54,754 nucleotides of DNA from Bacteroidota bacterium (GTDB taxonomy: Bacteria; Bacteroidota; Bacteroidia; NS11-12g; UBA955), in contig CANMBF010000017.1 of assembly GCA_947496065.1 (NCBI GenBank), positions 1 to 54,754 on the forward strand. The letters run 5' to 3'. Made by a program: the position numbers and the translations under genes. This document shows positions 3,650 through 46,948 of the stretch, one piece after another (position 1 is the stretch's first letter; every line of letters begins with the position of its first letter). The notes under the pieces were generated by a model. That model was not told the origin of the DNA and did no database searches. It saw nothing but the letters and a program-made list of their open reading frames with translations.

Positions 3650-3793
3650 TAGTTATTCGGGAATAGTTATTGGTTAATGGTTATAAGTTATTGAGGGAAA
3701 TACGTTCAAGCGCCCCAATAAACATTGAAGTTATTTGTTAATTATTTTTAGTAGTTAAAGGAATAACATCGAAGCTTCCTAATAACCAACTAT
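3650..3793. repeat. imperfect inverted repeat, GTTATTGGTTA/TAATAACCAAC family, copy A
   Basis: This stretch opens with repeated AGTTATT/GGTTAAT-like units and closes with CTAATAACCAACTA, so its ends can pair as a long imperfect hairpin. It lies at the 3' end of the PKD/T9SS gene (stop at 3790). Similar stretches lie at 10691-10754 and 49566-49647, also next to gene ends. It may act as a transcription stop or be a relic of a small mobile element. Confidence 0.5.
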
Positions 3794-6375
3794 CGCATTA
3801 ACAACAAACTGCTTGTGTGGTTTTCAATACCTGCGCCATAAGGTGTTAAGGCAATTTTACAAATGTAGATGCCGTTAGGACAATAGTCATCGCGAAATTT
3901 GCCATCCCATCCTTTTTGTACATCATTGCTTTCAAATAATTTCTCGCCCCATTTGTTAAATATTTCCATTTTGAAATAGCTAACATATAAACTCGAAAAT
4001 GGCATATACGTATCGTTGATGGCATTGCCATTCGGCGAAAAAACATTGGGTAAATAAAAAAAGAATTTGTGATAGGTGGTAAGACTATAGCTATCCGAAC
4101 AACCTCCGGCAGTGGTGGCTACCAGAGTAAAAGTGTTCTTTCCTGAATCCAAATAATTTAGAATCGGATTTTTATCGTTGCTGTTTTTGCCGCTGCCAAA
4201 AGTCCAACTGTAATCAACGGTATTATCAGTGGAGTAATTGTGAAACTCAATCACTTTATGCCCCCCGTTCAAAGAGCTAATTTCGTTGAATGTAAAACTT
4301 GCAGTAGGCCTCTCTCTTACCGTTATGCCGCGATGTTTAACAACTGAATCAACGCAACCATTTTCTGCTCTTATGACCAATTTGACATTGTATTTGGCTG
4401 GTTCGGTATAAAATTTCAAAGGATTTTTTTTAGCAGAAAACGTATTGTCGCCAAACGACCACCAATAATTAATGATTTTACCCGATGCAAAAGTAGATTG
4501 GTTGTTAAACTCAACACTGTCTGGAAAGCAAGGCGAACTAGCTTCAAAAGCCGCATCAGGACTCGCTTTTAACATTATTAATTTCGAAATACTATCTTGG
4601 CAATTGTTGGCAGTTACGATGCTTAAACTTACTTGGTACAAGCCATAAGTAGCGTATTGCTTTAATACCAAACTATCGTTACTGGTGGTGCCATCGCCAA
4701 AATTCCAATACGAATGCGCTATATAATCATCGGCGACATAACCGCTGTTAAAGAATTTGAATTGATTGTTTTTAGAACACATGATGGTATCGGAGGTGCC
4801 AATTTTTGCAGTTACCGTTGGATTGTGTACCACTATGGTATCCGAACTATTACATCCAAAACTATCTAAAACATTTAAAATATAAGTACCTTTTTTATTG
4901 ATTTGCAAAGATGCTCCTGTGTTTCCTGTGTTCCAATTGTATTGCAAGTGTGGCTCAGGGGTCGAGAGAATTAGGGCAAAAGCATTGCAAAAACTAGTAT
5001 CATGGCCAATATGCGGCTTAACATCTTTTACTTTAATTTTTGTATATGCAAAGGACACTGATTTTTTATAATAGTAATACAACCAAACCGTATAAGTGCC
5101 CGCTAGCTTATAAATATGCTGTGCGCCAATGGCTGTTCTTGAATAATTAGAAGGATCTTTGCCTTGCTCGCCAAAGTACCACTTGACAGAATCGACATCT
5201 TCTGTACTCGATATACTAAAGGTGGCCGTGTCATTTAAACAATAACCTTTGGCAAATATGGTTTTTAAATTGAAGAGCGATGCGTTAAAATTGGGCAAGC
5301 CTAGTAAACAATTTTTTCCGCCCAAATAAAGGCTGTTTTTTAGGGGGTGAGAAAGAACTCCCGCAGAATCAGGCGCTTCAATAGAATGTAAGTAGGGATG
5401 ACCTGTTACAGAGATGTATATCTTCCCATTAATGGCCAATTGCAATGCCCCTAGTTCATTGTTGTAATTACTATCTACCGTGTATTTGGATTTCAAAAAA
5501 TCACTATATGTAGTAGCTTTCGCATCGTACTGATAAAGTTTTTTGTTTTTAAATTCAGTGATATAAAGATATTTACTTTTTGATGAAAACTCCAAGCCGT
5601 AGGCCTCTTTATTGCGGAATAAAAAGGGGTTTGTAACAAAGCCTGTTAAATTATTGAAATCAGCAATTACCGAAGTGTCTCTTGTATAATTAACATACGC
5701 TATTTTTCGACCATCAGGCGAAAATTTCATACTGCCCAAAGTATTAGAATAAATGCCACTAATTTTTAAACCTGTTTTGCTTTTAACAGGGCGCGGTATA
5801 ACGCCATAACCTGTAACACGAAATGCATATAAACTATCACTATTGTATTTGTGCGCCATGATCCAATAATCGAAACCATTGCCATGTTTTACAGCACAGA
5901 GTTTTTCGCATGCAGGTGCTGCCAACTTTTTATTCTTGTTCCAATACAAAACATCGCCCTTGCCACCATTCAGGCCCATATTAATTTCTGAATAGGTAAT
6001 ACCTTCCGCTCCTGCTACTTTATCAGAGGTGAAAATATAATACGAGTTGGTGGAAAATGGCTTGGGTACAATCACTATCGATTGGGTACTCGAAGCACTC
6101 CCTTTTAGGTCGTCACCATTGGGCATTTGTTTGTGTGTGCTATCCCAAACATTAACGCCATCGGAATAAAACAATAAGCGACCCTCTGCATTACAAATGC
6201 TAGCACAACCTTCCGATGCAAACATTTTTCCATTGGTAATGGCTTTCGGTGTGCCGCTGTTAAAATCAATCCCCGCATTGGCACCAAAATACCAAACATT
6301 CGCCTCTTTTTGGGCGTTTGCTATCGGCACTATCAGCATGAAGGAGATGAAAAAAAACAAGCATTTTTTAAGCAC
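3790..6375 (-). CDS. PKD-domain protein with gliding-motility type (T9SS type B) C-terminal sorting domain
   Basis: This 861-residue exported protein starts with a signal peptide (MLKKCLFFFISFMLIVPIANA). The first ~370 residues look like a beta-propeller-type region of a Bacteroidota-specific kind (NVWYFGANAGIDFNSG, LLFYSDGVNVWD). Several PKD-type immunoglobulin-like repeats follow, marked by WNFGDGTTSNDS, WWSFGDNTFS and YSWTFGSGKN. The last ~90 residues (LPNVFSPNGNAINDTY, then FNKWGEKLFES and WDGKF) match the gliding-motility-associated C-terminal domain (CHU_C, type B) that routes proteins through the type IX secretion system to the cell surface. A role in adhesion or as a surface structure is likely but not provable. 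It stands alone, with no clear operon partner; a dispersed inverted repeat sits at its 3' end. Confidence 0.92.
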   Translation of the reverse strand: MLKKCLFFFISFMLIVPIANAQKEANVWYFGANAGIDFNSGTPKAITNGKMFASEGCASICNAEGRLLFYSDGVNVWDSTHKQMPNGDDLKGSASSTQSIVIVPKPFSTNSYYIFTSDKVAGAEGITYSEINMGLNGGKGDVLYWNKNKKLAAPACEKLCAVKHGNGFDYWIMAHKYNSDSLYAFRVTGYGVIPRPVKSKTGLKISGIYSNTLGSMKFSPDGRKIAYVNYTRDTSVIADFNNLTGFVTNPFLFRNKEAYGLEFSSKSKYLYITEFKNKKLYQYDAKATTYSDFLKSKYTVDSNYNNELGALQLAINGKIYISVTGHPYLHSIEAPDSAGVLSHPLKNSLYLGGKNCLLGLPNFNASLFNLKTIFAKGYCLNDTATFSISSTEDVDSVKWYFGEQGKDPSNYSRTAIGAQHIYKLAGTYTVWLYYYYKKSVSFAYTKIKVKDVKPHIGHDTSFCNAFALILSTPEPHLQYNWNTGNTGASLQINKKGTYILNVLDSFGCNSSDTIVVHNPTVTAKIGTSDTIMCSKNNQFKFFNSGYVADDYIAHSYWNFGDGTTSNDSLVLKQYATYGLYQVSLSIVTANNCQDSISKLIMLKASPDAAFEASSPCFPDSVEFNNQSTFASGKIINYWWSFGDNTFSAKKNPLKFYTEPAKYNVKLVIRAENGCVDSVVKHRGITVRERPTASFTFNEISSLNGGHKVIEFHNYSTDNTVDYSWTFGSGKNSNDKNPILNYLDSGKNTFTLVATTAGGCSDSYSLTTYHKFFFYLPNVFSPNGNAINDTYMPFSSLYVSYFKMEIFNKWGEKLFESNDVQKGWDGKFRDDYCPNGIYICKIALTPYGAGIENHTSSLLLMR

Positions 6376-6546: not shown

Positions 6547-7179
6547 TTATTTAAGCTTTAAATTCAAGCGTTTCATTAAGTCAATAACAATTGGGTTTTC
6601 TTTTACAATTTCATCCAATTGTTCGCGCTGGGTATAAGCTTTTGTCTGAGCAATCACCGTGTTATCTTCGTTAATCACCAAAGTAATTTGACGGTTCGAA
6701 AAATAATCGCGCAAAAACCTTTGCCATTCTACCTTGATGGGTTCTATTAAATTGATATTGGCCTTCTGCATTGAAAGCACCACGTCATAAACTTCTATCT
6801 TCGGTAAAAACATTTTGACCAAGGCCGCAGCAGATGGCGATAAACTAGAAGCAAAAGCCAACATAGCGGCTTTTAAATTTACATCGTTCAGCTCGACCAC
6901 CGCTTGAGGTTCGTTTACTTTAGATAAAGTTTCTAGCGTTTCTTCTTTGGCCGCTTCTATCTTGGCCTGCACTGCAGCATCAGAAGCTTCTATAATCTCT
7001 GCAATCTCAATTTGAATAGGAGGGTACAACGTTTTGATTACGTTTTCTCTCACCGGTAATTTCGGTAAAATAAAACTAGCATCTGCTAATGGAATTGGTT
7101 TTACAACAGGGGTAGGGTTCTGCGCTGTGGCCCCGTTTTGAAAATTGAGCTCGGCTTTGCGCGCTATATACTCATCACT
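6547..7179 (-). CDS. dnaX: DnaX tau-specific C-terminal extension, reached by -1 frameshift
   Basis: This frame continues the dnaX coding sequence downstream of the A10 run. Read from AGT at 7177-7179 it gives SDEYIARKAELNF and runs on without a stop to 6547 (210 residues). It contains a linker and then a folded C-terminal part (ALVKMFLPKIEVYDVVLS, FLRDYFSNRQITLVINED) of the kind that ends full-length Bacteroidota DnaX. Joined to residue 365 of the upstream frame by one repeated A it makes a 575-residue tau protein, a normal length. The tau tail in other bacteria binds the polymerase core and the replicative helicase. No ATG start lies in the frame; the GTG at 7051-7053 is inside the domain and is unlikely to be a real start. 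The alternative explanation is a one-base loss in the homopolymer, by sequencing error or mutation. Confidence 0.85.
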   Translation of the reverse strand, partial: SDEYIARKAELNFQNGATAQNPTPVVKPIPLADASFILPKLPVRENVIKTLYPPIQIEIAEIIEASDAAVQAKIEAAKEETLETLSKVNEPQAVVELNDVNLKAAMLAFASSLSPSAAALVKMFLPKIEVYDVVLSMQKANINLIEPIKVEWQRFLRDYFSNRQITLVINEDNTVIAQTKAYTQREQLDEIVKENPIVIDLMKRLNLKLK

Positions 7180-8273
7180 TTTTTTTTTAATTCGTCAAGC
7201 GTAGCAGCCGAATTCAACATATTTTTAATATGGCATAATTTCAACAAGGCCAACTCTACATGCAAACGTTGATTCCTGCTGTTTTTATATTCCAAATCAA
7301 ATTGGTTGTTGATGTTTAATGCATTCAACAAAAAAGTGAGATTGGTGTTTTTGCTCTGCTCGTTGTATTTGGCTTTATGCATTTCGCCAACATCCAATAA
7401 ATGCGCAGTGGCCGAATCTTTACAAACCATTAAATTTCTAAAATGCTCGTTCAATCCATTTAAAAATAGTTGACCATCGAACCCTTTTTCTAAAACCATG
7501 TCAAAGTAGTTGAGCACCTCGCCCACGTTTTGATTTAAAATGGCATCGGTTACTTTAAAATAATAGTCTTTGTCGAGCAGGTTTAGATTCTCTACCACTT
7601 GAGCGTAGGTAATATTCCCATTGCAAAAACTTACCATTTGATCGAACATCGATAAGGCATCGCGCAAACCACCATCTGCCTTTTCGGCTATCAGATGCAA
7701 GGCTTCGTCTTCGGCTTTTATATTTTCTTTGGCAACAATGGTTTTCAAATGGTGAACCATGTCTTTTACTTGTATGCGTTTGAAATTAAAAATTTGGCAA
7801 CGCGATAAAATGGTCGGCAATACCTTGTGCTTCTCAGTAGTTGCTAAAATAAAGATGGCATATTTAGGCGGCTCCTCTAAAGTTTTTAAAAATGCATTGA
7901 AAGCCTGCTGACTTAACATGTGTACCTCGTCTATAATATAGATTTTATAGGTGCCTGTTTGCGGTGGTATTCTAACTTGTTCGTTGAGTTGACGTATATC
8001 ATCTACCGAATTGTTACTAGCAGCATCGAGTTCAAAAATATTAAAGGCATAATCCAAATTAGGATCATCATGGTCTTTTTGGTTAATCACCTTGGCTAAA
8101 ATACGGGCGCAAGTGGTTTTACCGACACCACGTGGACCAGTAAACAAAAAGGCTTGGGCCAGGTGGTTATTGTTAATCTCATTGAGCAAAGTATCGGTAA
8201 TATGCTTCTGTCCTACCACATCATCGAAGATGGAGGGGCGGTATTTGCGGGCAGATACAATAAAATTTTCCAC
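7164..8273 (-). CDS. dnaX: DNA polymerase III subunit gamma (short form) / N-terminal part of tau
   Basis: DnaX is the ATPase motor of the clamp loader at the replication fork. The 369-residue frame has Walker A GPRGVGKT (46-53), Walker B YIIDEVHML (about 112-120), sensor 1 ATTEKHK and the SRC motif (157-159), followed by the helical and oligomerisation domain III. It ends four residues after three AAA lysine codons at the A10 run, which fits a gamma-like truncated product like that of E. coli. The -1 frame directly continues the tau tail. One oddity is that the four-cysteine zinc module, normally between Walker A and the DAASNNSVDDIR motif, is replaced by a cysteine-free loop (NQKDHDDPNLDYAFN). 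The ATG at 8271-8273 gives the typical MENFIVSARKYRP start. Confidence 0.95.
   Translation of the reverse strand: MENFIVSARKYRPSIFDDVVGQKHITDTLLNEINNNHLAQAFLFTGPRGVGKTTCARILAKVINQKDHDDPNLDYAFNIFELDAASNNSVDDIRQLNEQVRIPPQTGTYKIYIIDEVHMLSQQAFNAFLKTLEEPPKYAIFILATTEKHKVLPTILSRCQIFNFKRIQVKDMVHHLKTIVAKENIKAEDEALHLIAEKADGGLRDALSMFDQMVSFCNGNITYAQVVENLNLLDKDYYFKVTDAILNQNVGEVLNYFDMVLEKGFDGQLFLNGLNEHFRNLMVCKDSATAHLLDVGEMHKAKYNEQSKNTNLTFLLNALNINNQFDLEYKNSRNQRLHVELALLKLCHIKNMLNSAATLDELKKKVMSI
7179..7190 (-). other. dnaX slippery site (run of ten A)
   Basis: On the coding strand the sequence is TT followed by ten A and then GTGATGAG. The zero frame reads TTA AAA AAA AAA GTG ATG AGT ATA TAG and stops. A -1 shift, or one extra A added by transcriptional slippage, reads into the tau frame as LKKKSDEY. 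Comparable slippery runs in dnaX are established: A AAA AAG in E. coli (ribosomal) and A9 in Thermus (transcriptional slippage). The in-frame stop lies 10 bases past the A run. I see no strong hairpin just downstream, which favours transcriptional slippage over hairpin-stimulated ribosomal shifting. Confidence 0.7.
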
Positions 8274-46522: not shown

Positions 46523-46948
46523 ATGAAAAAAAAATTAGCCATTGTGCTCTCTCTTCTTATCATTTTAGGAATCGGAGCCCTTATTTATCTTAAATATGCC
46601 TACTTCACTGACAGGCATAATGACCCACTCCAATCGGAAGATAAGATCTATATAACTGCTCCTCAATTGTTTGCTTTGTATAGTCAATTTGAAGACAGTG
46701 CCAATCACCAATACAATGACAGTGTTATTAGCGTCACAGGCGCCATTCAAAGCATTGAATTAAATGGAGACCGATATACTGTTGCGCTTAATTCAAATGA
46801 TAGCAACGGTGCAGTTCTATGCGAAATGGATATGCTAGAAAACGAGAAAATAAAAAAACTTAAAAATGGGCAACAAATAAATTTGGTTGGCTATTGTAAT
46901 GGTATCCTTCTAGATGTTCAACTCGACCGCTGTAAATTGGCAAAGTAA
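46523..46948 (+). CDS. membrane-anchored OB-fold (tRNA_anti-like) protein
   Basis: The 141-residue product has one N-terminal membrane segment (LAIVLSLLIILGIGALIYL) and then a domain that looks like the tRNA_anti-like OB-fold: VISVTGAIQSIELNGDRYTVAL, VLCEMDM and QQINLVGYCNG. Exported OB-fold proteins of this kind are found near YceI and DUF5777 genes in Bacteroidota. Binding partner unknown. It is four bases downstream of the cytochrome-like gene and 37 bases upstream of the YceI gene. Confidence 0.75.
   Translation: MKKKLAIVLSLLIILGIGALIYLKYAYFTDRHNDPLQSEDKIYITAPQLFALYSQFEDSANHQYNDSVISVTGAIQSIELNGDRYTVALNSNDSNGAVLCEMDMLENEKIKKLKNGQQINLVGYCNGILLDVQLDRCKLAK

Follow-up and report, generated by a model that had tools for sequence, protein, structure and literature searches.

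A conserved run of ten adenines at the gamma/tau junction of dnaX in Bacteroidia as a candidate programmed-slippage site

We found that dnaX in the window (the whole stretch of 54,754 nt analyzed here) is divided between two reading frames at a run of ten adenines (A10), with the zero frame closing shortly after the run to end a gamma-type product and the −1 frame continuing with the remainder of tau. Judged from the sequence, dnaX is quite likely a programmed-slippage gene in which RNA polymerase would slip on A10, such that one gene gives both gamma and tau. Runs of this kind were found at the same junction in most of the dnaX loci that we compared, and we lean toward the view that dnaX is frame-neutral across Bacteroidia, in that a run held close to ten A, with both off-frames closed by stops, would yield gamma and tau by polymerase slippage whatever the frame of tau. 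The layout of this essential gene would then have flipped at least 10 times with neither product lost.

Direct reading of the minus strand places the start codon of dnaX, a GTG, at position 8273, and the gene comprises the following features:

7164 to 8273, minus strand: dnaX zero frame, a gamma-type product of 369 aa (AAA+ ATPase, lid and domain III)
7188 to 7179, minus strand: A10, the putative slippage site in dnaX (codons TTA AAA AAA AAA)
7172 to 7177, minus strand: tandem TGA TGA stops in the +1 frame, directly 3′ of A10
7166 to 7164, minus strand: zero-frame stop of dnaX and end of gamma (TAG here)
6547 to 7179, minus strand: −1 frame tau tail of 210 codons plus a stop (linker and predicted C-terminal domain)

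The zero-frame codons at the junction are GAC GAA TTA AAA AAA AAA GTG ATG AGT ATA TAG. The zero frame is therefore closed 4 codons after A10, and the +1 frame is closed after 1 codon by TGA TGA, which would end products made after the loss of one A or the gain of two. The −1 frame opens at 7179 with AGT GAT GAG TAT ATA GCG and continues to a stop at 6549–6547, giving a tau of 575 residues (365 shared residues plus 210). The initial annotation, which had placed the end of the zero frame after 369 residues just past A10 and the tau tail in the −1 frame with a total of 575 residues, was thus confirmed by direct reading. Its further statement that the zero frame ends soon after domain III agrees with the Pfam matches on the zero-frame product (DNA_pol3_delta2, DNAX_ATPase_lid and DNA_pol3_gamma3), the last of which spans residues 222–359 of 369.

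The zero-frame product matches TIGR02397 (404 bits) and covers positions 2–372 of the NCBIfam gamma/tau model NF011531 (614 positions), and the −1 tail covers positions 416–613 of the same model (E-value of 2.1e-6). Since head and tail are collinear on one model, the two belong to one protein, of which the tail forms the C-terminal part, and the window gene has AAA+ domains I–II, domain III and the C-terminal tau part in the order of the gamma/tau model. A Pfam search with the tail gave no family at E-values up to 1, and a PDB sequence search with an alignment that took in 68 of 115 tails returned no DnaX chain and two chains only, with E-values of 0.31 and 0.93. The predicted structure of the tail (209 residues modelled) consists of a low-confidence unstructured stretch and a well-predicted small alpha/beta domain, with block means of pLDDT above 90 in residues 101–170. 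Foldseek placed E. coli tau domain V (2aya) at rank 10 as a weak match (E-value of 0.055), and the top rows of a second structural comparison were DnaA domain I and similar small folds, with DciA close behind. The absence of 2aya among the best 50 rows listed by VIA-align is no evidence against it, and the modelled fold is compatible with tau domain V.

Further analysis of the run revealed that A10 occurs once in the window in comparison with 7.27 occurrences expected from dinucleotide shuffles, indicating that such runs are otherwise avoided there. The whole genome contains 12 A/T runs of at least 10, and the other 11 lie between stop-to-stop ORFs or approximately 55 nt or less from an ORF edge. 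Two shorter runs in the window, nine T at 198–206 and nine A at 46526–46534, lie inside longer stop-to-stop open frames and are either further slippage candidates or start-region runs. The window also encodes a secreted-looking protein of 861 residues (3790–6375, minus strand), whose C-terminal region we take to resemble gliding/type IX secretion C-terminal domains.

The run and the offset are conserved within the genus. Specifically, all 15 same-genus loci (the window gene and 14 relatives, the latter at 75–97% protein identity) carry A10 with the same −1 offset and have TAAAAAAAAAAGTGATGA in common amid surrounding bases that have changed, and all 15 also keep TGA TGA in the +1 frame. Some of these relatives close the zero frame with TAG and others with TAA (10 rows aligned). 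A dnaX search of two further same-genus genomes gave no match. The tau tail is under purifying selection: compared with the nearest relative, dN was 0.086 and dS 1.04 for the tail in the −1 frame (dN/dS of ~0.08), with a dN of 0.018 and a dS of 0.81 for the head in frame 0. One same-genus draft genome has a TAA 9 codons into the tail after A10 (locus L016), beyond which the tail looks homologous in the same frame by eye, consistent with either an error or a loss. The initial annotation had suggested inspecting the run and the offset in the dnaX of relatives and had named a true run of A11, or relatives with an uninterrupted frame and no A run, as observations that would refute its reading. Neither was borne out: A10 and the offset are kept throughout the genus, and relatives with an uninterrupted tau mostly retain the run as well.

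For the wider comparison, relatives, evenly drawn members of the class, some genomes from other classes of the phylum and named contigs together supplied 145 dnaX loci, and removal of 13 exact duplicates around the site left 132. The search for relatives matched 55 of 59 genomes (the source genome included), with the cut matches in G022, G053 and G058 left out, and all 48 genomes of the even class draw were taken in. The 12 genomes from other classes were hand-picked, partly for short open frames, and the 7 of them with the run do not represent a rate. We found a run of A9–A12 at the gamma/tau junction, i.e., at the end of domain III, in 118 of the 132 distinct loci, with A10 being by far the most frequent length (97 loci, versus 10 with A9, 10 with A11 and 1 with A12). 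Within the even class draw, 46 of 48 genomes had A9 or longer at the junction. The 14 loci without such a run include 5 of the 12 hand-picked genomes and one locus whose contig is cut short of the site. Elsewhere in dnaX, only one other run of A9 or longer was present in the 201,357 nt of 115 complete genes. Two of the loci without a run have a stop at the gamma end. In L057 (CADCPQ010000077.1, around position 4100), this stop is an in-frame TAG past which frame 0 resumes as a tau-like linker, as would be seen with readthrough, stop reassignment or an error; in L070 (CAJOFD010000015.1, around position 4100), it is a TGA, and the +1 frame is open for 258 codons, which may indicate a +1 shift of another kind.

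The run is shared by loci with different tau frames. Of the 118 run-bearing loci, 57 encode tau in frame 0 (including one truncated at a contig end), 60 in the −1 frame and a single one in the +1 frame. That the run is retained even where tau already lies in frame 0 would be difficult to account for if slippage served no purpose. In the single +1 case (L103, in G146), the run is A10, and a genus-mate (G087) has A11 with tau in frame 0. Across loci, the first A of the run can occupy codon position 1, 2 or 3, and within one family of the genome set (f6), tau is found in all three frames (0, −1 and +1) at one and the same site. A quick single-gene tree built from the ATPase part implies at least 15 changes of layout at face value, 14 with branches below 90 support collapsed and 10 with branches below 95 collapsed.

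Next to the run, the non-tau frames are closed far more often than expected. For this comparison, 115 loci were testable, i.e., the 118 run-bearing loci minus L016 (broken tail) and L066 and L088 (cut by contig ends), and the expected values were taken from other positions of the same tails. Both non-tau frames were closed within 7 codons in 109 of these 115 loci (23.9 expected) and, with one locus per genus, in 66 of 71 (13.7 expected), where each named contig and each other-class genome counted as its own genus, and where binomial p values overstate certainty because genus representatives share ancestry. Stops in the +1 frame were enriched in both layouts, with 42 of 46 tau-first genus representatives (16.4 expected) and 24 of 25 gamma-first representatives (7.5 expected) carrying one. 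The distances were also alike in the two layouts: on the −1 side of the tau frame a stop followed within 2 codons in 87% of loci, and on the +1 side 83 of 115 loci had one after 3–6 codons, which implies that the downstream stops are kept while the upstream phase changes. In the remaining 6 of 115 loci, an off-frame stays open for 9–86 codons.

These features suggest the following mechanism. RNA polymerase would slip on A10 and produce mRNAs with differing A counts. Transcripts that keep A10, lose one A or gain two would meet a stop within four codons and give gamma (domains I–III), and those that gain one A or lose two would continue in the −1 frame to yield tau at 575 residues. Both subunits would come from one gene, with the tau:gamma ratio set by slippage. 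Selection would hold the run near ten A together with the stops in both non-tau frames and leave the tau frame free to flip, because slippage would feed all three frames. Gamma retains the ATPase and oligomerisation domains I–III and should be able to load clamps, and the C-terminal part of tau tethers polymerase and helicase in known replisomes. We infer the occurrence of slippage, its level and its transcriptional rather than ribosomal nature from the sequence features described here.

A different route to the same two products is that the mRNA is faithful and that some ribosomes slip by −1, or slide, on the lysine codons to give tau, with the rest stopping at TAG to give gamma; we regard this as unlikely, though the most probable of the alternatives. 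Ten A would allow re-pairing in any frame, and ribosomes are reported to slide on poly(A) (PMC4363877); however, according to the same report, sliding in the reconstituted E. coli PURE system needed at least 11 A. The site in the window reads A_AAA_AAA, on which frameshifting in E. coli is described as far less efficient than on A_AAA_AAG (PMC5009743). The latter motif is absent from the zero frame of the window dnaX (codons TTA AAA AAA AAA GTG) and occurs in frame in 29 of the 118 run-bearing loci. With respect to tRNAs, one tRNA-Lys (UUU) and no CUU were seen among 28 matches in the draft genome, which resembles the condition of E. coli, and not of Thermus, as far as a list that lacks Glu, Ile and Asn can tell.

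By folding, no stable hairpin is predicted at the window site. The 100 nt around the site have a z-score of +1.3 relative to shuffles, and the 50 nt after the run fold at −7.6 kcal/mol (rank 31% of the gene's own windows), in comparison with −19.7 kcal/mol (rank 6.5% in its gene) for the 50 nt after the E. coli dnaX site. Structure after the run showed no tendency among the 71 genus representatives, with a median rank of 49% among same-gene windows, 3 of 71 in the lowest 5% and 9 of 71 in the lowest 10%, and 2 of 115 loci equalled or undercut the E. coli site in the folding energy of the next 50 nt. In comparison with shuffles, z fell below −2 for 6 of 71 representatives; since the shuffle test also misses the known E. 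coli dnaX hairpin (z of −0.28), its z values say little, and the rank test is the better one.

The upstream sequence bears on ribosomal slippage in both directions. The window gene lacks an SD-like AGGGAG approximately 10 nt upstream, and the 18 nt preceding A10, TGCTACGCTTGACGAATT, match AGGAGG at no more than 3 of 6 positions (4 at the E. coli site). Among genus representatives, however, SD-like bases are more frequent than in controls: at least 4/6 matches to AGGAGG within 18 nt are present in 42 of 71, versus 31.9% of control positions, and at least 5/6 in 9 of 71, versus 7.1%. The excess could also reflect Glu-Glu codons upstream, and it slightly lowered our confidence in programmed slippage. 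Potential stimulators resembling those of E. coli are reported for the reversed dnaX of Chlorobium phaeobacteroides (PMC5009743). A scan for promoters and terminators gave nothing clearly above shuffles.

The stops and the phase of the run speak against a simple ribosomal shift. The enriched +1-frame stops would be useless to a pure −1 shift, and the phase of the run is not kept across genera, although a −1 shift would need it fixed; off-frame stops on both sides would also suit ribosomes sliding both ways. Taken together, the off-frame stops, the free phase, the lack of structure, the scarcity of A_AAA_AAG and the A-length thresholds favor slippage by RNA polymerase, possibly with a ribosomal share. 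The same reading had been guessed in the initial annotation, and it still appears the better one for the window gene, which has no stable hairpin, no in-frame A_AAA_AAG and stops in both the +1 and 0 frames.

It is very improbable that the break reflects a sequencing or assembly error, with a true run of A11 (or A8) and tau in one frame. Errors are common in homopolymers, and the assembly is a draft in 79 contigs, but the zero-frame stop is kept through a change between TAG and TAA, and the explanation is already contradicted by the identical A10 and offset in all same-genus loci and by the presence of the broken layout in one-contig genomes of the class (G115, G228 and G153). Just as little probability attaches to a split or decaying gene, in which gamma ends at TAG and the tail is either a dead remnant or a separate, re-initiated protein. 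The first possible start in the tail frame, a GTG at 7053, does lie ahead of the predicted domain, but of the 59 loci whose tau is not in frame 0, only 3 have a tau-frame ATG, GTG or TTG no more than 10 codons from the gamma stop, and we rejected both decay and re-initiation given so few starts, the constraint on the tail (dN/dS as above) and the fusion of the same tail in frame 0 in relatives. Phase variation, whereby changes of run length in the DNA would switch tau on and off between cells, is the least probable of all and was rejected, since the run, for all the mutability of homopolymers, is near-fixed at exactly 10, unlike a contingency locus, and tau is expected to be essential.

With polymerase slippage as the preferred reading, the window dnaX belongs to an already known kind, the reversed two-ORF dnaX, because Antonov et al. 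described the same layout with A10 in 2013 (PMC3711429). That study reported reversed two-ORF dnaX in 17 genes of 12 genera and put forward transcriptional slippage as the mechanism for the nine genes that carry ten A; it also noted that the 17 genes lacked recoding annotation in RefSeq (PMC3711429). We expect that genes like the window dnaX are likely to be called as a short DnaX plus an orphan ORF. In the open-licence papers searched, we found no description of a class-wide A10, of the run in relatives with an unbroken tau or of repeated flips of the layout. A 2012 review states that, outside enterobacteria and Thermus, most bacteria keep no dnaX frameshift signature and may make no gamma (PMC3290774). 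The loci analyzed here argue that most of the class keeps a signature, which makes it probable that gamma is both produced and of use there. Flips of layout such as those in family f6 offer natural comparisons for the level of slippage and the tau:gamma ratio.

Among known systems, the closest is the two-ORF dnaX of the GeneTack cluster of Antonov et al., in which, as in the window gene, gamma stops in frame 0 and tau requires −1 recoding at a poly-A junction, and nothing essential in its description differs from the window gene (PMC3711429). The latter likewise has its frame-0 gamma stop just after the site, its tail in the −1 frame and a junction poly-A that is conserved in relatives. A search for broken frames presumably sees only the reversed layout, whereas here relatives with an unbroken tau keep the same run. 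In genes of the Shigella mxiE type, the longer product also needs transcriptional slippage on a homopolymer, as proposed here, but the product is a transcription activator and the homopolymer a U run, in contrast to a replication protein and an A run (PMC1088944). The likeness to E. coli and Thermus drawn in the initial annotation holds insofar as gamma and tau would come from one gene by slippage, and fails for the layout, which is reversed, as tau in those organisms is the zero-frame product. In E. coli dnaX, the frame also changes after domain III, but this occurs by −1 ribosomal frameshifting at A_AAA_AAG with AGGGAG upstream and a hairpin, none of which is seen or predicted in the window gene. 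The dnaX of Thermus thermophilus is more similar at the site itself, with nine or more A, near stops in both non-tau frames and gamma and tau from one gene, and transcriptional slippage on nine A has been demonstrated there (PMC1088944, PMC5009743). Its tau, however, is a single zero-frame ORF, whereas the zero-frame product of the window gene is gamma (PMC1088944, PMC5009743). According to a 2016 review, one altered base can be enough for the two dnaX products to exchange roles (PMC5009743), and the uninterrupted tau frame of the Thermus type, although absent from the window gene, is present in 57 of the 118 run-bearing loci.
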